Below are positions 13,625 through 23,197 of a stretch of 51,986 nucleotides of DNA, piece by piece. Each line of letters begins with the position of its first letter. Position 1 is the stretch's first letter. The notes under the pieces were generated by a model. That model was not told the origin of the DNA, did no database searches, and saw nothing but the letters and a program-made list of their open reading frames with translations. The stretch comes from Pseudomonadota bacterium (GTDB lineage Bacteria; Pseudomonadota; Alphaproteobacteria; Acetobacterales; Acetobacteraceae), in assembly GCA_021805665.1 (NCBI GenBank), contig JAJZEV010000115.1:1-51986 (forward strand), read 5' to 3'. The translations under genes and the position numbers were made by a program.

Positions 13625-13783
13625 TCAGGCGTAGCCGCCCAGCCAGCCGCGTTGATGCATGTTCGTGGCGACGCTGGCGCCCGCCACCGCGCTTGCGGTT
13701 TTGAACACGACGGCGTGATCCGAGGGGGCGGTCGCCATCGTCAGACGCAGTGCGGTGATGGCGGCGAGGATCGGGTTAGTCAT
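13625..13783 (-). CDS. Small hypothetical protein, 52 aa
   Basis: Not a recognised family. ATG 13783 is preceded by GGAGAA at 5-6 nt spacing, and the codons favour G or C in third position like the neighbours. The product begins MTNPILAAITALRLTMA, a moderately hydrophobic amphipathic helix, continues through DHAVVFKTASAVAGASVATN and ends HQRGWLGGYA. The GGY and Trp-rich tail and absence of cysteines give no functional clue. It lies divergent from phaC, with a perfect FNR/FixK box 148 bp upstream of its start. In class I geometry (box centred near -61.5), a CATAAA -10-like element on the minus strand falls at about the right place. It may be a low-oxygen-induced small protein. Confidence 0.55.
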   Translation of the reverse strand: MTNPILAAITALRLTMATAPSDHAVVFKTASAVAGASVATNMHQRGWLGGYA

Positions 13784-14418
13784 CGAAATTCTCCGTGCTT
13801 CGGCCGGGGGATGTGTCCGGCATCGTTGGGCCGTTTATTAGGTCCATGCCGAAGACTCGATAATGCTGCATTGCGGCATTGGATTTATGCGCAGAACGGG
13901 GAAATGGCCAAAACCGGCGACCAGGGCCGTTTGATCCCGATCAAGGAAGCGGCTTGGCTTTGCGCCTAACCAGGGTGCGGGACCACTGACGGCGCCAAGG
14001 GATGTGTCCGCGACAGGCGCCATGCACGACTATCGGCTTCCGGTACCGCGAAGGAGGGCGTGGCAGCCATCGGGCGGAGAGACCCTGACTGAAGTTCGTC
14101 CTGGATGGAAAGTAAATGACCATGGCACCCGGCATCGCTGCCGGCAGCGTGCATTGTATCGTCGTGTGAATAGACATCTGTGTGCCCGATTGGATGCGAT
14201 ATGTGCTGTTTTTAATATATTTGTAATATGGTCAGTGGAGTGCGAATGTTAGACATATATCTACTGGATATCCTGCAATTCGGAACCTCTTTGTTCTTTA
14301 ATTCTTGTTCGAACCGGCGTTCGATCCCGTCGGCGCGGATGCCGGATCTGGCAGGTTCTGTCTCACATGCAACGAACATAAGCCGCCCGAACCCATACCC
14401 CTTCCAAGGAGCCCGATC
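13784..14418. other. 635-bp intergenic region upstream of phaC
   Basis: No gene larger than a few dozen codons is convincing here; a frame at 14004-14252 has unusual composition and no clear start. The region holds a perfect FNR/FixK box at 13931-13944. It also contains an AT-rich stretch at about 14190-14310 with several TATA-like runs, in sharp contrast to the GC-rich surroundings. The AT-rich part, ending about 110 bp before phaC, is the most likely phaC promoter region. If the box controls phaC directly in class II geometry, the leader would be about 440 nt. Confidence 0.6.
13931..13944. promoter_or_regulatory. Perfect FNR/FixK-type box
   Basis: TTGATCCCGATCAA matches the FNR/FixK/Anr consensus TTGAT-N4-ATCAA at every specified position. 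It lies between the 52-aa minus-strand gene (start 13783) and phaC (start 14419). Related phaC/pta/ack/fabI-type genes are low-oxygen-regulated in some rhizobia (family knowledge), which supports a functional site. Which direction it drives cannot be decided from sequence. Confidence 0.7.
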
Positions 14419-16155
14419 ATGCCGGCCATGACCACGCCTGTTCAGCCATCCGTCGCCGAACCCGAGGCAGAGACACCCCGCCTGACCAGCCCGGCCGACC
14501 TCGATCGCCAGTTGCACGCCTGGCAGAACAGGTTCACGGGTGGCCGCTCCCCCAGTACCATTGCTTTGGCTTGTCTCGACTGGGCCGCCCATGCGGCGAA
14601 CGCGCCGTTTCAGACAGCGTATCTGGGGCGCATCGCGCTCGATCAATGGGCCCGCCTGTTCCGATCCGCGATGGGACAGGACGAGCCGATCGCCCCGAAG
14701 CCCGGGGATCGCCGGTTCGCCGACCCGGCCTGGCAGCAGCGTCCGTTCAGCCTGATGACCCGGGCGGTGCTGCTGGGCGAGGAATGGTGGGATCAGGTTG
14801 CCCGCAGCCCCGGTGGGGTGGACCCGCACAACCGGCGGTTGGTCGCATTCACCCTGCGGCAGTGGCTGGACATGATTTCCCCCTCCAATATTCCGTGGCT
14901 CAATCCCGAGGTTGTGGACGCAACCCTGAAGACCGGGGGCCGCAATCTGCTGGCTGGCTTTAGCAATTACCTGCACGACCGGACGGGGGAGGCCCCGACA
15001 GGATTCACTGTCGGCGGCAATCTCGCGGTGACGCCGGGCAAGGTCGTGTTCCGCAATACGCTGATGGAATTGATTCAGTACAGCCCGTCCACACCGCAAG
15101 TCGGCGCCGAACCGGTGCTGATCGTGCCGGCGTGGATCATGAAATATTACATTCTGGACCTGTCGCCGGGTAATTCGATGATCCGCTGGCTGGTGAGCCA
15201 GGGACGCACCGTGTTCGCGATTTCCTGGCGGAACCCCGGTGAGGAACTGAGGGATACGACACTGGACGACTACCGCACACAGGGCGTGATGGCGGCGATC
15301 GACGCTGTTCGCGCGATCTGCGGCGATACGAAAATCCATGCCACCGGCTATTGCCTGGGCGGCACATTGCTGACCATCGCAGCGGCCGCGATGGCCCGGG
15401 ACGGCGACGACCGTCTTGCCAGCCTGTCGCTGTTCGCCGCGCAGACCGACTTCACCGAAGCTGGCGAGCTGCAATTGTTTATCACCGAGGATCAGCTCGA
15501 TTTCCTGGGCGATATCGTGAAAACGCAAGGCTATCTGAGCAGCGAGCAAATGAGCGGCGCATTTCAGATGCTGCAATCCAACGATCTGATCTGGTCGCGG
15601 GCGGTGCGCGACTACTTGCTGGGCGAACACGAAACGCCGTTCGACCTGATGGCCTGGGACGCCGACGGCACGCGCCTGCCGGCACGTATGCACATAGAGT
15701 ATCTACGCAGACTTTACCTCCGCAACGAACTCGCCGAGGGCCGGTTTCCGGTTGCCGGCCGTCCACTGGCACTCGATGACATCAAGCTGCCGGTTTTCCT
15801 GGTGGGAACCGAACGCGACCATATCGCGCCGTGGCAATCGGTGTTTAAGCTCCACCTGCTGAACGACGGCGAACTGACATTCGTGCTGACATCCGGTGGC
15901 CATAATGCGGGTATCGTCAGCGAACCCGGGCATCCGCACCGCCATTTCCGTATTCGCACCCGCGCGGCCGGGGGCCGTACCCCGGGGCCGGACGAGTGGG
16001 AACAGACCACCACCCCCCGCGACGGGTCGTGGTGGGAGGAATGGAGCGCCTGGCTCGCTCAGCGCTCCGGCGGTCCGATCGATCCTCCGAGCATGGGTGC
16101 GCCGGGGTACCGGCCGCTTTGCGATGCGCCTGGACAGTATGTGCTTGAAGGATAG
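14419..16155 (+). CDS. phaC: Class I poly(3-hydroxyalkanoate) synthase
   Basis: Polymerises (R)-3-hydroxyacyl-CoA, typically 3-hydroxybutyryl-CoA, into PHA granules with release of CoA. ATG 14419 has AAGGAG 8 nt upstream; the 578 residues fit class I synthases. The N-terminal PhaC domain (about 60-240) includes PSNIPWLNPE and the GGRNLL segment. The catalytic domain shows the lipase-like box GYCLGG with nucleophile Cys312, and the triad is completed by Asp467 (GTERDHIAPW) and His495 (SGGHNAGIVSEP). It is followed 5 nt later by the MaoC-Pta fusion. phaA, phaB and phasin genes are not in the window, so this may be a second, condition-specific synthase. Confidence 0.95.
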   Translation: MPAMTTPVQPSVAEPEAETPRLTSPADLDRQLHAWQNRFTGGRSPSTIALACLDWAAHAANAPFQTAYLGRIALDQWARLFRSAMGQDEPIAPKPGDRRFADPAWQQRPFSLMTRAVLLGEEWWDQVARSPGGVDPHNRRLVAFTLRQWLDMISPSNIPWLNPEVVDATLKTGGRNLLAGFSNYLHDRTGEAPTGFTVGGNLAVTPGKVVFRNTLMELIQYSPSTPQVGAEPVLIVPAWIMKYYILDLSPGNSMIRWLVSQGRTVFAISWRNPGEELRDTTLDDYRTQGVMAAIDAVRAICGDTKIHATGYCLGGTLLTIAAAAMARDGDDRLASLSLFAAQTDFTEAGELQLFITEDQLDFLGDIVKTQGYLSSEQMSGAFQMLQSNDLIWSRAVRDYLLGEHETPFDLMAWDADGTRLPARMHIEYLRRLYLRNELAEGRFPVAGRPLALDDIKLPVFLVGTERDHIAPWQSVFKLHLLNDGELTFVLTSGGHNAGIVSEPGHPHRHFRIRTRAAGGRTPGPDEWEQTTTPRDGSWWEEWSAWLAQRSGGPIDPPSMGAPGYRPLCDAPGQYVLEG

Positions 16156-16160
16156 AGACC

Positions 16161-17564
16161 ATGACTGAAGCAATCGGCGGCCAGTTCATTGAAAACCGGA
16201 CATTCGAGGAATTGTCCCCGGGTGACGCCGCCAGCCTGTCGCATACCGTTACGCAACGCGATATCGATCTGTTCGCAACGGTCACCGGCGACGTGAACCC
16301 CGCCCATGTCGATCCTGCGTATGCGGCCACCGATATGTTCCACCACATCATCATCCAGGGGATGTGGGGTGCGGGGCTGATCTCGGCTGTGCTGGGCACG
16401 GAATTGCCCGGGCCAGGGACGATTTATCTGGGCCAGGACCTGCGCTTTACCCATCCCGTCAGTATCGGCGACACCATTACGGCCACGGTGACCGTGCGCG
16501 AGAAAAAGCCGGCGAAGGGCGACGTGGTACTGGACTGCGTCTGCACCAACCAGACGGGCCAGACCGTGATCGCGGGCAACGCCTTCGTTCGCGCGCCGAC
16601 CTCCAAAATCCGGGTCAAGCGCGTCAGGTTGCCCGATGTGCGCGTGCTGCGCCATGACCGGATGCAGGCGATGATGGCGCGCGCCGCTGCCGGTGCGGCG
16701 ATCCCCACAGCAGCGGTGTATCCGGTGGATGCGGCGTCCCTGCTTGCTGCGCTCGACGGCGCGAAAGCCGGCCTGATCGTGCCGATCCTGATCGGGCCGG
16801 CCGCCCGGATTCAAGCGGTCGCGCACGATGTTGGCGCCGATATCGGCGGGCTGAGGCTGATCGACGTCGCCGATGCAGCCGATGCCGCGGCGCGCGGGGT
16901 GGCACTCGTGCGGTCCGGCGAGGCGGGTTTGCTGATGAAGGGGGATCTGCACACCTCGGACCTGATGCATGCGGTAGTCGCCGCCGATACCGGGCTTCGC
17001 ACCGCCTGCCGGATCAGCCATGTCTATCTGATGGACGTGCCTGACTATCCGCGTCCGCTGCTGGTCACCGACGCTGCCATCAACATCGCCCCGGACCTGA
17101 TGGACAAGGCCGGCATCGTGCAGAACGCGATCGATCTGGCGCATGCGATCGGCATTGCGCAGCCGCGCGTGGCGATCCTGGCGGCGGTGGAAACGATCAA
17201 CGACCGGATGCAATCGACGCTGCATGCCGCGGCGCTGTGCAAGATGGCCGACCGGGGGCAGATTACCGGAGCGCTGCTGGATGGCCCGCTGGCGTTCGAC
17301 AATGCCATCAACGAAGCCGCGTCGGCCGAAAAGGGGATCGTTTCTCCTGTGGCCGGCCGGGCGGACATCCTGCTGGTGCCCGATCTCGAAGCCGGCAACA
17401 TGCTTGCCAAGCAACTGACGTTCATGGCCGGGGCCGAGGCCGCGGGGTTGGTGCTGGGCGCGCGCGTTCCCATCATCCTGACCAGCCGGGCGGACAGCGC
17501 GGCGACGCGGCTGGCATCGTGCGCGTTGGCGGTACTGATGGCGCGAGCGGGGATGACAGCATGA
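16161..17564 (+). CDS. Bifunctional enoyl-CoA hydratase (MaoC) / phosphate acetyl- or butyryltransferase
   Basis: A two-domain enzyme, 467 residues. The N-terminal hot-dog domain (about 10-150) is a MaoC-type R-specific enoyl-CoA hydratase with the D-x4-H catalytic pair Asp44 and His49 (GDVNPAHVDP). The C-terminal domain (about 160-467) is of the phosphate acetyl/butyryltransferase family and interconverts acyl-CoA and acyl-phosphate. The start is ATG 16161, 5 nt after the phaC stop. The stop overlaps the kinase ATG by 4 nt. This fusion is a known family in alphaproteobacteria. Hydratase and acyl transfer in one chain suggests a C4 substrate handed between 3-hydroxybutyryl-, crotonyl- and butyryl-CoA, though acetyl-CoA cannot be excluded. 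Confidence 0.92.
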   Translation: MTEAIGGQFIENRTFEELSPGDAASLSHTVTQRDIDLFATVTGDVNPAHVDPAYAATDMFHHIIIQGMWGAGLISAVLGTELPGPGTIYLGQDLRFTHPVSIGDTITATVTVREKKPAKGDVVLDCVCTNQTGQTVIAGNAFVRAPTSKIRVKRVRLPDVRVLRHDRMQAMMARAAAGAAIPTAAVYPVDAASLLAALDGAKAGLIVPILIGPAARIQAVAHDVGADIGGLRLIDVADAADAAARGVALVRSGEAGLLMKGDLHTSDLMHAVVAADTGLRTACRISHVYLMDVPDYPRPLLVTDAAINIAPDLMDKAGIVQNAIDLAHAIGIAQPRVAILAAVETINDRMQSTLHAAALCKMADRGQITGALLDGPLAFDNAINEAASAEKGIVSPVAGRADILLVPDLEAGNMLAKQLTFMAGAEAAGLVLGARVPIILTSRADSAATRLASCALAVLMARAGMTA

Positions 17565-18733
17565 AGGGATCTATACTTAGCCTGAACGCGGGCTCGTCCA
17601 GTCTAAAATTCGCCTTGTTCGATACCGAAGCCGATCTGAAGGCCACGGTGCGGGGCGAAATCGAGAACCTGGAATCCGAACCGCACATGATCGCACGCGA
17701 CGAAGCGGGCAGGGTGCTGATAGAAAAGCACCTGTCGGCCGGGTTCGATTTGGCGCTGCATACGCTGCTGGATTTCGCCGACGCCCATCTCGGCCGCGAT
17801 GGCTTGATAGCGGTTGGGCACCGGGTTGTGCATGGCGGCGCCGATCATATTGGACCCGAACCGATCACGCCGGCGTTGCTGACGGCCCTGGAACGGCTGA
17901 CGCCGCTGGATCCGCTGCATATGCCGGAAAACCTGGCGCCGATGCGCCTTGTCGCCGCTGCTCGGCCCGGTCTGATGCAGGTAGCTTGTTTCGACACCGC
18001 GTTCCATCACACGATGCCCGCGGTGGCGACCCGGTTCGCGCTGCCTCGTGCGGTCTCGGCCGATGGCGTGCGCCGTTACGGTTTCCATGGTCTTTCCTAC
18101 GAATACATCGCCTCCTGCCTCGCGGAGGTTGCGCCGGCTTTGGCGGGCGGGCGGACGATCGTTGCCCATCTTGGGTCGGGGGCCAGCCTGTGCGCCTTGA
18201 AGAACGGTGTCAGTGTCGAAACGACCACCGGATTCAGCGCGCTGGATGGCCTGATGATGGCCACACGATGCGGCCTGCTGGATCCAGGGGTGTTGCTGTA
18301 TCTCGGCCGGCAGTGGTACAGCTTCGCCGATATCGAGGCGATGCTGTACCACCAATCCGGACTGCTGGGCGTGTCCGGAATCAGCGGCGATGTCCGCACG
18401 CTGCTGGCGAGTAACGATCCGCATGCCGTGGAAGCCATCGATCTGTTCACCTATCGCATCGCGAGCCAGGCCGGCGCCCTGATCGCGGCGCTGGGCGGGT
18501 TGGACGGTCTGATTTTCACCGCCGGCATCGGCGAGCACGCGCCACCCATCCGCGCCGCCGTCTGTCAGCGCCTCGGCTGGCTTGGCCTTCGGCTCGATCC
18601 GGTGGCCAATGCGGCCGGGGCGGGGCGGATCAGCACACCGGACAGCGCGATCGACGTGCGTGTGATCGCAACGAACGAGGAAGTCACGATCGCCCGCCAT
18701 ACCCGGGCGGCGATGCTTAATTCCCTTACCTGA
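17561..18733 (+). CDS. ackA: Acetate/propionate-family kinase
   Basis: Transfers phosphate from acyl-phosphate to ADP, yielding ATP and a carboxylate, 390 residues. ATG 17561 overlaps the preceding stop (ATGA). An upstream extension of the same frame is the shadow of the previous gene. It shows NAGSSSLKF (9-17), GHRVVHGG, GFHGLSYEYI and AHLGSGASLCA, the nucleotide- and acetate-binding motifs of the ASKHA kinases, and the C-terminal FTAGIGEHA. Paired with the Pta/Ptb domain it makes a substrate-level phosphorylation route. Sequence alone does not separate acetate from propionate or butyrate preference. fabI-like follows 14 nt later. Confidence 0.93.
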   Translation: MKGSILSLNAGSSSLKFALFDTEADLKATVRGEIENLESEPHMIARDEAGRVLIEKHLSAGFDLALHTLLDFADAHLGRDGLIAVGHRVVHGGADHIGPEPITPALLTALERLTPLDPLHMPENLAPMRLVAAARPGLMQVACFDTAFHHTMPAVATRFALPRAVSADGVRRYGFHGLSYEYIASCLAEVAPALAGGRTIVAHLGSGASLCALKNGVSVETTTGFSALDGLMMATRCGLLDPGVLLYLGRQWYSFADIEAMLYHQSGLLGVSGISGDVRTLLASNDPHAVEAIDLFTYRIASQAGALIAALGGLDGLIFTAGIGEHAPPIRAAVCQRLGWLGLRLDPVANAAGAGRISTPDSAIDVRVIATNEEVTIARHTRAAMLNSLT

Positions 18734-18747
18734 ACGGAGATCCGAAC

Positions 18748-19527
18748 ATGTCGCCGCCCTTTACAACCAGCCTGCGCGGCAAGCGCGGCCTGGTCGTCGG
18801 TATTGCCAATGACTCCAGTATCGCGGCCGGATGTGCGCGCGCCTTCGCGGCGCAGGGTGCCACCCTGGCGGCGACTTATCTGAACGAAAAGGCCCTGCCG
18901 CATGTGCGTCCGGTCACCGACGCACTGGGTTGCGAGCTGCTGCTGCCGTGCGATGTCGGTGTTGCGGGCCAGTTGGAGGCGGTGTTCGACAAGGTTCGCA
19001 CGACCTGGGGGCGGCTCGATTTCCTGTTGCATGCCATCGCTTTTGCACCAGCGGCCGATCTGCATGGCCGGGTGGTGGATTGCAGCGCGGCGGGGTTCGC
19101 GCTGGCGATGGATGTATCATGCCACTCGTTTCTTCGCATGGCACATTTGGCGGAACCGCTGATGCCGGACGGAGGTTGTCTGCTGACCGTCACGTTCTAT
19201 GGGTCCGAACGGGTGGTCGCGAACTACAATTTGATGGGACCGGTCAAAGCTGCTTTGGAAAGCGCGGTTCGTTACACCGCCGCCGAACTGGGACCGCAAC
19301 AAATCCGAGCGCATGCGATATCTCCGGGGCCGATCAGTACCCGGGCGGCGAGCGGGATCGCCCATTTCGATGCACTTCTGGTCGCCGAGGCTGCCGCGGC
19401 CCCGGAACACCAGTTGGTGGATATCGAAGACGTGGGCGCGCTGGCGGCATTCCTGGTGAGCGACGCGGCCCGTCACATCACCGGTACAATCGTCCCCGTG
19501 GACAGCGGCCAGCATCTTTTGGCCTGA
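18748..19527 (+). CDS. fabI: FabI-like enoyl-ACP/enoyl-CoA reductase, atypical active site
   Basis: NADH-dependent reductase of the SDR superfamily related to FabI, 259 residues from ATG 18748 with a GGAG just upstream. The cofactor loop reads VGIANDSSIAAG (17-28), typical of FabI, and the Y-x6-K pair is present as Tyr160 and Lys167 (ANYNLMGPVK). The position aligning with the second, outer tyrosine of FabI (Tyr146 in E. coli) is Phe150 in TFYGSER, with a Tyr at the next residue. Sited after phaC, MaoC-Pta and the kinase, it is probably not the housekeeping FabI. Reduction of crotonyl-CoA or another enoyl-CoA is the attractive alternative. Its stop is 92 nt before the H+-ATPase gene. Confidence 0.85.
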   Translation: MSPPFTTSLRGKRGLVVGIANDSSIAAGCARAFAAQGATLAATYLNEKALPHVRPVTDALGCELLLPCDVGVAGQLEAVFDKVRTTWGRLDFLLHAIAFAPAADLHGRVVDCSAAGFALAMDVSCHSFLRMAHLAEPLMPDGGCLLTVTFYGSERVVANYNLMGPVKAALESAVRYTAAELGPQQIRAHAISPGPISTRAASGIAHFDALLVAEAAAAPEHQLVDIEDVGALAAFLVSDAARHITGTIVPVDSGQHLLA

Positions 19528-19619
19528 ATATTGGTTCGGCGGGGTTGTTTCGGGTCGGCCCCGGCCTAAAGTCACTCGACCGGCCGACGGTCAGCCAGTT
19601 CCCGAAAGTAACACAGACC

Positions 19620-21974
19620 ATGGCAATGCCGTCCCCGGCCGTCCCGGTTCCCGTCGTGAACGATCAGGCGCCGCAAGGGCTGACAACCCGGGAGGCTCAG
19701 CGCCGCCTGTTGGCGACCGGTGCCAACGCGATGCCCGATACCAGCATGCATCCGTTGCGGATGGCGCTGGAAAAATTCTGGGCGCCGGTGCCTTGGATGC
19801 TGGAGGCCGCGGTCGTGCTGGAAGTCGTCCTCGGCGACTACGTTCAGGCCGCGATCATCGCTGGTCTGTTGATATTCAACGCGGTTCTTGGGCTGGTGCA
19901 GGAAAGCCGGGCGCAGGCGACGCTGGAGGCTTTGAAGTCGCGGTTGGCGCTGAATGCGTCGGTTCGGCGCGACGGCGCCTGGAAGACCATACCGGCGGCG
20001 GACCTGGTACCTGGCGACGTGGTGAAGCTGTCGCTGGGCGGCGTGGTGGCGGCCGATGTGCATATTACCGGCGGCGAGGTGCTGCTGGACCAGTCCATGT
20101 TGACCGGCGAATCGATACCTGTGGAGGCTGGGGCCGGCGTGGCGGCCTATGCCGGGGCTTTGGTGCGGCGCGGCGAGGCGGTGGCCGAGGTGACGGCAAC
20201 CGGGGTTCGCACCAAGTTTGGTCGAACGGCGGAGCTTGTGCGCACCGCCCGGGTGGTCAGTTCGCAGCAAAAGGCGGTGCTGCGGGTGGTCCGCAACCTT
20301 GCCGGTTTCAGCGGTGCGGTGATCCTGATGCTGTTGGTCTGTGCCTACTTCCTGAAACTGCCGCTGACCGAGATGGTGCCGCTAATCCTGACCGCGATCC
20401 TGGCGTCGATCCCGGTCGCGCTGCCTGCCACCTTTACACTGGCATCCGCGCTGGGTGCCCGGGCGCTGGCGAAACTGAACGTCCTGCCGACGCGCCTGTC
20501 GGCGGTGGATGAAGCGGCCACGATGGACGTTTTGTGCGCCGACAAGACCGGCACGCTGACGCGCAACGAATTAAGGGTGACGACGGTTCAGCCGATGTTG
20601 GGCTTCGATGCGGCGCATGTTCTGGCGCTGGCGGCGCTGGCGAGTTCCGACGGCGGGCAGGATCCGGTGGATGCCGCGATCCGAACGGCGGCGGGAGCGG
20701 CGAAAGCGGTGAATGCGCCGCATCTGGTAAAGTTCATCCCGTTCGACCCGGCAACGAAAATGTCGGAGGCTTGCGTGCTGGATGCGGCATCCGGCCCGCA
20801 ACGTGTGGTAAAGGGCGCGTTCGCCGTGGTCGCAGCACTGGCTGCCCCGTCGGACACCGCGGCGGCAGCGGCGAGCAACGCCCAGGGGCAGGGCTTCAGG
20901 GTGCTGGCGGTCGCGGCGGGGGCGCCCGGTGCGATGAAACTGGCGGGGCTTATCGCGCTCAGCGACCCACCCCGAGCGGATTCGGCGGCATTGGTGAGTG
21001 AGTTGCACGGGCTGGGGGTGCGAACCGTGATGGTGACGGGCGATGCGCCGCAAACAGCGGCGATCGTCGCGCATGCGGTGGGTCTGGATGGCGCCGTCTG
21101 TCCGCCGGGGCCGATCCCGGACGGGGTGCGCCCGGAGGCGTTCGCGGTATTTGCCGGCGTGCTGCCCGAGGACAAGTATAAGCTGGTCAAGGCATTCCAG
21201 GCCGGTGGCCATACAGTGGGAATGTGCGGCGACGGTGCCAACGACGCGCCGGCGCTGCGCCAGGCCCAGATCGGCATCGCGGTTTCGACCGCGACCGACG
21301 TGGCAAAATCGGCTGCCGGCATGGTGCTGACCGAACCCGGACTGGCCGGCATCGTCGCCGCGGTGAAGGAAGGGCGGCTGACGTTTCAGCGCATCCTGAC
21401 CTATACGCTGAATTCGATCATCAAGAAGATCGTGACGGTGTTGCTGCTGATTGTCGGCCTGATCATGACCGGTCACGCGATCCTGACCCCGCTGCTGATG
21501 GTAATACTGCTGATCGCGGGCGACTTTCTGGCTATGTCGTTAACCACCGACAACGTCCGGGCCTCCCCTGAACCGAACGTCTGGCGGATCGGTGGTTTGA
21601 CGCTGGCGGGGACCGTGCTGGGGGTTTGCATGCTGGCGTTCTGTGCCGCCGTGCTGGCGTGCGGCACCTTCCTGCTGCATCTGGATATCGGTGCGCTGCG
21701 GACCCTGGTTTTCGTCGCGTTGGTGTTCGCCAGTCAGGCAACGATTTATGCCATTCGCCAGCGCCGCCATTTGTGGGGACTGCGCCCCAGCGCGTGGCTT
21801 ATCGCCTCGTCGGTGGCAGATGTGCTGATTGCCGCGGTGCTCGCTGGCGCCGGCATCGCGATGGCACCGTTGCCGCCGCTGACGATAGCCGCGGTTCTGG
21901 CGGCGGCAGTCATCTTCGCGTTTGTCCTGGACGCGGTGAAGGTTCCGCTGTTCGCTTATCTGCGGATCGTCTAA
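19620..21974 (+). CDS. Plasma-membrane-type proton-exporting P-type ATPase (P3A)
   Basis: ATP-driven H+ pump of the plant/fungal plasma-membrane type, 784 residues from ATG 19620. Motifs in order: TGES (162-165) in the actuator domain, DKTGTLT with phosphorylated Asp308, PEDK near 516 and GDGANDAP (537-544). Membrane segments lie at about 58-92, 228-275 and in a C-terminal cluster from about 600. The M6-region [12 protein letters not shown] is typical of bacterial members of this class rather than Ca2+ or K+ pumps. The large regulatory C-terminus of plant pumps is absent. Downstream of the acyl-kinase it could spend fermentative ATP to keep pH or membrane potential when respiration stops. Proton specificity is by family resemblance. 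Confidence 0.9.
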
Positions 21975-22057
21975 TGGAATTATCCGGCGAACCGGTTCGG
22001 TTTCTTGGTGCCGTGAAAGCCGCCGGTTCGTTGTCCGGCCGGGGGGATGTGCGATGA
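21974..22057 (+). CDS. Possible 27-aa coupling ORF between H+-ATPase and PPK2
   Basis: A 27-codon frame whose ATG overlaps the ATPase stop (TAATG) and whose TGA overlaps the PPK2 start (ATGA). The product begins [15 protein letters not shown] and ends RGDVR; no family is recognisable and third-position composition is less biased than in the neighbours. The perfect fit between stop and start suggests it carries ribosomes from one gene to the next rather than making a functional peptide. It may equally be chance. Confidence 0.3.
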
Positions 22058-22923
22058 AAATAAAGTCGGACGACTTTCGGGTCGAAGCGGGCGACAAGGT
22101 CGATCTGTCCAAGTGGCCCACGCGGGTTAAGCCCGTGTATAAATCGAAGAAAAACTACAAGGAAATACTGGAAAACCATGTCGAACGGCTGAGTGCGTTG
22201 CAGCAGCTTTTGTATGCGTCCAACCGCCATGCGGTTCTGCTGATTTTTCAGGCGATGGATGCGGCGGGCAAGGACGGTGCGATCCGGCATGTGATGTCCG
22301 GGGTCAATCCGCAAGGCTGCCAGGTGTTCAGCTTCAAGCATCCCAGCGCGATGGAATTGCAGCACGATTTCCTGTGGCGGACCACGCGCGACCTGCCGGA
22401 ACGGGGCCGGATCGGAATCTTCAACCGCTCGTACTACGAGGAGGTGCTGATCGCACGGGTGCATCCGGAAATTCTGCGCAACGAAGGACTTGCCGATGCT
22501 CCGGCGCACGAGGCGGCAATCTGGCGTGACCGTTACCAGTCGATCACCGATCTCGAGAGCCATCTGCATCGTAATGGAACCCGAATCGTCAAATTCTTCC
22601 TCCATCTTTCCAAAGACGAACAGCGCAAACGCTTCCTTGCCCGGATCGACGACCCCGAAAAGAACTGGAAGTTCAGCCTCGCTGATATCGAGGAACGGAA
22701 ATTCTGGAACCATTACATGACGGCCTACCAGGAGTGCCTGGCAGCGACGAGCACCAACCATGTGCCCTGGTATGTCGTGCCCGCCGACGACAAGGAAAAT
22801 GCGAGGCTGATCGTGTCCCGGATCGTCCTGGATACGCTTGAGGGATTGGATATGAGCTTCCCGAAAACCAGCCGGGAGCGGCACCAGGAATTACTGGCAA
22901 TCCGGGAGAAGCTGGTAAAATGA
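22054..22923 (+). CDS. ppk2: Polyphosphate kinase 2 family protein (polyP:nucleotide phosphotransferase)
   Basis: Transfers phosphate between polyphosphate and nucleoside mono- or diphosphates, 289 residues. ATG 22054 follows a GGGGGG-rich ribosome site. The PPK2 Walker A-like motif is in [19 protein letters not shown] (about 66-84); [10 protein letters not shown] gives the Walker B/lid region, and [11 protein letters not shown] with [16 protein letters not shown] completes the family pattern. One PPK2 domain of this length resembles class I or III enzymes, so regeneration of ATP from ADP or AMP is likely. Coming after a H+-ATPase in a putative low-oxygen operon, it fits an emergency ATP-buffering role. 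Direction and nucleotide preference need assay. Confidence 0.9.
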
Positions 22924-23002
22924 CGCCGCAAGCCATTCAGTTCGGCCCGCGGCAACTGTTATTGCATCGCCGGCCGCGCACCGCGGTGGTTCGGCCGGTC
23001 AC

Positions 23003-23197
23003 ATGAACCAGCCACCCGAGAGCAAGCTGCACCCGATCGAAAGCAAATACGTGGCGGCAGCGGCCGTGGCGGCATTCCTGCTGGCACTGTTGTTGACCGG
23101 CGGCAGTTTGATGGCCGGTTTCGGCGCGATGGCGCTGATCGCCGGAATCGGATGGGCGGTTCGCCGGCTTCGGGCAAAAGCCGCCCGGTCACCGTAA
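23003..23197 (+). CDS. Small hypothetical membrane protein, 64 aa
   Basis: A 64-residue protein with a polar N-terminus (MNQPPESKLHPIESKY), one long or two short hydrophobic stretches at about 17-52 broken by GGSL, and a basic tail (RRLRAKAARSP) that should sit in the cytoplasm. Codon composition matches neighbouring genes. There is no clear Shine-Dalgarno sequence. It lies 79 nt after ppk2 and is probably the last gene of the phaC-to-ppk2 unit. No family recognised; a small membrane modulator of the ATPase is conceivable but unsupported. Confidence 0.6.
   Translation: MNQPPESKLHPIESKYVAAAAVAAFLLALLLTGGSLMAGFGAMALIAGIGWAVRRLRAKAARSP

Follow-up and report, generated by a model that had tools for sequence, protein, structure and literature searches.

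A putative polyhydroxybutyrate-linked fermentation cluster in an Acetobacteraceae genome

What might a polyhydroxyalkanoate (PHA) synthase gene be doing in one run with genes for an acyl-phosphate-forming fusion enzyme, an acyl kinase and a second enoyl reductase? The question is raised by contig JAJZEV010000115.1 of a Pseudomonadota bacterium of the Acetobacteraceae (GCA_021805665.1), which was analysed over its whole length of 51,986 nucleotides, here called the window; the assembly comprises 347 contigs (4.55 Mb), among which this one is C230. Six tightly packed genes on its plus strand (14419–22923) encode, in this order, the PHA synthase PhaC, a MaoC–phosphotransacylase fusion, an acyl kinase, a FabI paralogue, a P3A-like ATPase and PPK2. 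The same order had been given by an initial annotation made from the sequence, and assignment with NCBIfam and Pfam profiles bore out its gene families, with PhaC and the ATPase both divergent. The intergenic gaps of 5, −4, 14, 92 and 79 bp suggest a single transcript.

We read the cluster as a polyhydroxybutyrate (PHB)-linked, NADH-consuming and ATP-yielding fermentation module, probably butyrogenic, and give this reading a probability of just under one half (about 0.48). As respiration fails, (R)-3-hydroxybutyryl-coenzyme A (CoA) would be drawn from the PHB pool by PhaC acting in reverse, or formed from acetoacetyl-CoA, and the MaoC domain would dehydrate it to crotonyl-CoA. The FabI paralogue would reduce crotonyl-CoA to butyryl-CoA with NADH, the Ptb-like domain would convert this to butyryl-phosphate, and the kinase would release butyrate and ATP, so that NAD+ would be regenerated with a yield of one ATP per monomer. 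An adjoining ATP-driven pump (P3A-like here, an N-type F-ATPase elsewhere) would spend this ATP on maintaining an ion gradient, and PPK2 would buffer ATP against polyphosphate. The sequences show that genes for a PhaC paralogue, the MaoC–Ptb fusion, the kinase and a second FabI stand together both here and, in varying order, in many related proteobacterial loci. Among the new evidence the FabI subfamily favours the reading most; the reading is weakest in the kinase, in the hydratase, whose motif is broken in part of the fusions, and in the claim that all six genes belong together.

The fusion enzyme and the FabI paralogue

The fusion (16161–17564, plus strand) carries an (R)-enoyl-CoA hydratase-like MaoC domain and a Ptb-like phosphotransacylase in one chain, and scored 712.9 bits against NF006045 (cut-off 282), covering profile positions 4–459 of 467. 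Its transferase half reached 295.9 bits with the Ptb model TIGR02706 and 66.1 bits with the Pta model TIGR00651, for which the cut-off is 311.2, and the best PDB match of the fusion was 7vg9, a phosphate butyryltransferase. By profile score this half is Ptb-like and much nearer to the Ptb than to the Pta models, and on this point the initial interpretation is supported (296 against 66 bits). In the hydratase half, GD-x-NP-x-H, which we take to be the motif of (R)-specific hydratases, is whole at residues 43–49.

The FabI paralogue (18748–19527, plus strand), the proposed NADH-dependent enoyl-CoA reductase, belongs to subfamily NF005717 (420.2 bits, cut-off 337). It was aligned with 38 further FabI sequences from fusion loci (some encoded up to several kb from the fusion), 31 canonical alphaproteobacterial sequences and E. 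coli FabI. The catalytic Tyr156 and Lys163 (E. coli numbering) are conserved in all 39 fusion-locus sequences, as Y160 and K167 in the window, and the two groups differ around the substrate loop. In the column of E. coli R204, 29 of the 31 canonical sequences have Arg, whereas the fusion-locus sequences have Asp (35), Asn (3) or Glu (1), with D208 in the window. The A208 column holds Lys (30) or Arg (1) in the canonical set against Glu (17) or Asp (13) among the 39, with Val in the window, and the L195 column is Leu in 31/31 canonical and Arg in 39/39 fusion-locus sequences. Mean net charge of the loop is −0.03 (range −3 to 3) in the fusion-locus group, +3.2 (2 to 4) in the canonical group and +4 in E. 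coli. K201, R204 and K205 of E. coli FabI are presumably the residues touching acyl carrier protein (ACP). Since K201 and K205 are not conserved even in the canonical alphaproteobacterial sequences, the ACP argument rests on R204 and the net charge. Loss of the loop Arg fits a preference for CoA over ACP substrates and agrees with the earlier proposal of crotonyl-CoA reduction by the FabI-like enzyme, here placed in a subfamily that has lost a conserved substrate-loop Arg.

A search of 289 alphaproteobacterial genomes recovered 50 copies of the NF005717 subfamily at 363 bits or more, separate from canonical FabI, and 16 of them have a Ptb-like gene no more than about 7 kb away, where about 0.25 would be expected. 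Asp or Glu occupies the R204 place in all 30 NF005717 loci examined, Ptb-linked or not (5 of these 30 overlap the 39 above), and the alignments therefore assign the change to the subfamily and not only to the operon, which rules it out as a cluster-specific signature. A canonical FabI is also present in 10/10 genomes with an NF005717 copy, among 58 genomes examined. At two loci (L274 and L285) an NF005717 FabI directly adjoins PhaC, and the stretch examined there matches neither a transferase nor a kinase. FabI takes CoA thioesters in engineered reverse beta-oxidation, where it is listed with a trans-enoyl-CoA reductase (TER) for butyrate synthesis (PMC9118988); a specialised enoyl-CoA reductase descended from FabI would therefore be chemically reasonable.

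Recurrence in other proteobacteria

Related loci were taken as the best 80 of at least 592 matches to the window fusion, a sample from alpha-, beta- and gammaproteobacteria that is biased toward this fusion and not independent; 55 of them span at least 20 kb and 25 are shorter. The nearest named relative of the fusion among the matches listed comes from an uncultured Rhodopila metagenome-assembled genome (82% identity). The fusion–kinase pair recurs in all three classes. Genes were chained when on the same strand with gaps of at most 500 bp, and PhaC, FabI, fusion and AckA share one chain in 16/80 loci, in varying order: PhaC–FabI–fusion–kinase in eight and PhaC–fusion–kinase–FabI in seven, plus one with a preceding gene. 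Further chains are PhaC–fusion–kinase (5), fusion alone (4), FabI–fusion–kinase (2), PhaC–FabI–fusion (2) and ten single patterns. Among the 55 longer loci, PhaC and FabI are each found in 23, against 0/20 each in control regions; the 20 control regions of 20 kb gave no match to PhaC, FabI, kinase, pump or PPK2 at equal thresholds. In the 289 alphaproteobacterial genomes, 49 matched NF006045 above its cut-off, many through standalone transferases without MaoC, and the 20 top-scoring alphaproteobacterial fusion loci have AckA beside the fusion in 19 cases, FabI nearby in eight and PhaC within 10 kb in four.

The pumps and PPK2 recur more sparsely. Near the fusion in the 80 loci we counted nine N-type F-ATPases, five P3A ATPases (that of L090 on the other strand) and four PPK2 genes, with about 0.33 expected of each if single-copy. 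The N-type F-ATPases were named by their likeness to those of L157 and L158, and in 7/9 the beta gene precedes alpha about 4 kb apart. P3A homologues pass the TIGR01647 cut-off in L106, L078, L079 and L090, with a contig-end fragment in L081 below it; the count omits weak P-type ATPase matches (27–31% identity) in L077, L082, L085, L086 and L102, whose family was read from identity alone. In Rhodopseudomonas palustris XCP (L106) five of the six families meet, differently arranged as PPK2–FabI–fusion–kinase–P3A; L078 has P3A, PPK2, fusion and kinase all on one strand; and Rhodopila globiformis (L084) has PhaC–fusion–PPK2. All six families occur together in 0/80 chains, 25 of the 80 loci being shorter than 20 kb, and the idea of a conserved unit of six is rejected. 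The neighbourhood search proposed in the initial annotation thus upheld the grouping of PhaC, fusion, kinase and FabI in three proteobacterial classes and the return of pumps and PPK2, and not the co-conservation of all six. As a genomic unit, a PHB-linked acyl-phosphate module is well supported.

The same grouping is found on three annotated plasmids, in which the gene in the PhaC place is known from annotation only, as an alpha/beta hydrolase. In Sphingobium fuliginis (L157) an F-ATPase operon lies downstream; in Legionella anisa (L158) phbB lies downstream and an alternate F-ATPase upstream; and in Sphingobium xenophagum (L160) the surrounding genes encode universal stress proteins and truncated haemoglobins. 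An N-type F-ATPase lies beside the fusion in L157, L158, L082, L083, L088, L110, L112, L116, L135, L145 and L156, as if it could be swapped with the P3A-like pump. In Azospirillum (L159, L104) the fusion–kinase pair stands amid eno and gap, and in L159 also pgk and a formate/nitrite transporter; these surroundings suggest a glycolytic fermentation context.

Regulation and surroundings of the cluster

Upstream of the run lies an FNR/FixK-type box, TTGATcccgATCAA, at 13931–13944, a perfect palindrome by pattern match (TTGATCCCGATCAA, no strand assigned). The window holds no second perfect match, and one arises in 3/100 shuffles; the 4.55-Mb assembly holds 15 such sites, and the reversed pattern gives 0. 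The other 14 sites were retrieved and the proteins adjoining 10 of them scanned. As a positive control, a hemN frame (oxygen-independent coproporphyrinogen oxidase) in the same genome follows one such box at a distance of 54 bp (L309), and another precedes the gene for a cytochrome c domain protein; most other scanned sites adjoin genes without an evident oxygen link. The host genome also encodes, beside a FixJ-like response regulator (L069), a regulator of Crp type that contains the stretch TIETVSR, the names FixK and FixJ and the meaning of that stretch being our assumption. Box and regulator of an FNR/FixK regulon are thus both present.

Upstream of related operons, a perfect box occurs in 5/96 against 0.73% of random windows (binomial P 0.0007), and at least 9/10 box positions are matched in 11/96 against 2.75% (binomial P 0.00007). 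The set comprises 96 of 100 loci, four having been dropped for an upstream stretch shorter than 500 bp, and the control is lenient, being drawn from random, mostly coding windows of the same loci. In L038 the matched PhaC follows 92 bp after a box, and none was found upstream in the closest relative, L077; conservation of the box with the operon, tried as an explanation, holds only in part. Induction of the operon by a FixK/FNR protein is likely.

PhaC itself (14419–16155, plus strand; ATG after AAGGAG) contains GYCLGG and matches the Pfam PhaC_N domain (PF07167, 174.5 bits). It is judged divergent on its profile score, because its 530.1 bits against class I TIGR01838 fall short of the cut-off of 622.65. 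It is a second copy: a further PhaC lies on contig C92, the canonical FabI is on C240, and an intracellular-type PHB depolymerase is also present in the host genome. The P-type ATPase (19620–21974, plus strand; proton-efflux type) is likewise P3A-like but divergent by score, because 592.2 bits against TIGR01647 is slightly under 615.5. PPK2 (22054–22923, plus strand) is of the ADP–polyphosphate phosphotransferase type, with 524.8 bits against NF042973 (cut-off 450). The end of the stretch, previously set at 23197, overshoots PPK2 into a 64-codon frame for which a Pfam search gave no match. On the other side of the box, a divergent small open reading frame of 52 aa (13625–13783, minus strand), read by eye in the sequence, is another candidate target; no stop interrupts its first 51 codons, for which a Pfam search gave no match. 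It has a good ribosome site, and a similar small frame was seen by eye upstream of phaC in L077.

Competing readings and known systems

Several observations weigh against a butyrogenic module, and some of them concern the kinase (17561–18733, plus strand). It is of AckA type, with 317.5 bits against TIGR00016 (cut-off 293.4), and its 40.2 bits against Buk (TIGR02707) lie far under the cut-off of 289.1, which rules out Buk, the butyrate-type kinase. No other AckA-family match occurs in the host genome. In the alignment with E. coli AckA, P234 corresponds to A227, so that Ala replaces the acetate-pocket Pro, and V93 to V90; the retained Val is the residue described for the Methanosarcina enzyme as setting the limit on acyl length (PMC5517563). 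The equivalent of Leu122 is also kept, with Phe at the fourth pocket position, and E. coli AckA and the window kinase are identical at 15 of the 19 positions listed for Salmonella AckA, an enzyme described in the same source as not using butyrate (PMC3475010). At the Pro234 place, 20 fusion-linked kinases (window included) carry Ala (14), Thr (5) or Gly (1). Among 30 kinases from 115 alphaproteobacterial genomes (window included) 19 have no Pro; four of the 30 combine absence of Pro with absence of a Ptb-like neighbour, and two kinases beside standalone Ptb-like genes retain Pro. The Pro change is thereby weakened as a marker of fusion linkage, and these alignments make the change to Ala or Thr a subfamily trait. 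The kinase evidence is accordingly mixed, with an altered Pro pocket and Val93 kept.

On the same side stand the transferase score, whose 295.9 bits fall short of the 410.5 set for the Ptb equivalog (TIGR02706), the location of most NF005717 copies (34 of 50) away from Ptb-like genes, and the hydratase motif, intact in just 12 of 17 aligned fusions. Because the motif is broken in the other five, the dehydration step may have been lost in part of the fusion family; L047 and L051 have a broken motif yet a FabI nearby. In L047, L050, L051, L054 and L056 the hydratase half is possibly lost or repurposed. Lastly, 475 bp separate the box from the phaC ATG, against 148 bp to where the divergent small frame starts; of the regulation first claimed, the rare box, the FixK-like regulator and the hemN box stand, and the link to the operon, with this distance and no box in L077, is doubtful.

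These points feed the main rival, an acetate (or propionate) branch in which ATP would come from acetyl-CoA, MaoC would supply PhaC with (R)-3-hydroxyacyl-CoA and FabI would be a spare fatty-acid enzyme, the genes sharing a stress regulon and not one pathway. Such a branch would suit the AckA-type pocket of the kinase, the five fusions without a whole hydratase motif, the 41/80 chains that consist of fusion and kinase alone, and the NCBI name of NF006045, bifunctional enoyl-CoA hydratase/phosphate acetyltransferase; Bradyrhizobium pta-ackA is also read as an acetate route by its authors (PMC10888616). It accords poorly with a transferase far nearer to Ptb than to Pta models and with a FabI loop change that is hard to square with an ordinary ACP reductase, and the repeated, reordered grouping of PhaC, FabI, fusion and kinase suggests shared flux. 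We regard the acetate branch as possible, though less likely than the butyrogenic module, and the butyrogenic interpretation first offered as partly supported.

Two further readings touch single members of the run. The FabI paralogue could be an ACP enzyme that keeps fatty-acid synthesis going as a backup, in the cold, under stress or in the presence of inhibitors, its place near the kinase pathway being incidental: its NCBIfam family is named enoyl-ACP reductase, 34 of the 50 NF005717 copies lie away from Ptb-like genes with varied neighbours where scanned, and 18 of the 20 Ptb-unlinked loci at which PhaC was sought had no match to it. That is unlikely in view of the loop Arg lost in 39/39, the canonical FabI also present in every genome checked, the 16 Ptb-linked copies and the 2/20 unlinked loci directly beside PhaC. 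Alternatively the kinase and PPK2 might interconvert acyl-phosphate, ATP and polyphosphate under phosphate stress, with oxygen secondary; PPK2 does recur by 4/80 loci, and the Sinorhizobium pta-ackA operon is reportedly under PhoB control. PPK2 is missing near most of the 80 loci, however, and the boxes enriched upstream are of the FNR/FixK type, which makes such a phosphate-economy operon very improbable.

Carried beyond this genome, the butyrogenic reading would imply an unrecognised PHB-to-butyrate fermentation in many PHB-storing proteobacteria, with a FabI-derived crotonyl-CoA reductase free of ACP docking, an acyl-CoA-passing fusion and an AckA-type kinase working at C4, wired to ion pumps and polyphosphate for survival of oxygen loss; we put this forward tentatively, as a possibility short of an even chance. 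No description of a PHB-to-butyrate route via such an operon was found in the literature surveyed by title and abstract opening in one library. If true, PHB would be a fermentable reserve of energy and electrons under anoxia in presumed aerobes, a gene annotated as fatty-acid FabI would be a CoA-level electron sink, a widespread fusion enzyme annotated by homology would gain a testable role, and a natural route from PHB to butyrate would receive a name.

Among known systems, the clostridial Ptb–Buk pathway runs from acyl-CoA through acyl-phosphate to ATP, with Bcd-EtfAB. The window cluster shares this logic and has a transferase that is Ptb-like, with a score under the Ptb cut-off; unlike the clostridial pathway, it has an AckA-type kinase, a MaoC domain joined to the transferase, PhaC in the operon, and FabI where the clostridia have Bcd-EtfAB. 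It resembles the Pta–AckA acetate pathway in kinase family and overall logic and differs in its transferase, which with 66.1 bits against a cut-off of 311.2 falls outside the Pta family. The fusion is a clear member of NF006045 (712.9 bits), a family whose name states domain homology. E. coli FabI likewise serves as an enoyl-CoA reductase in engineered reverse beta-oxidation, which has butyrate among its products but ends in a thioesterase (PMC9118988), whereas the window system is natural and would end in acyl-phosphate and ATP.

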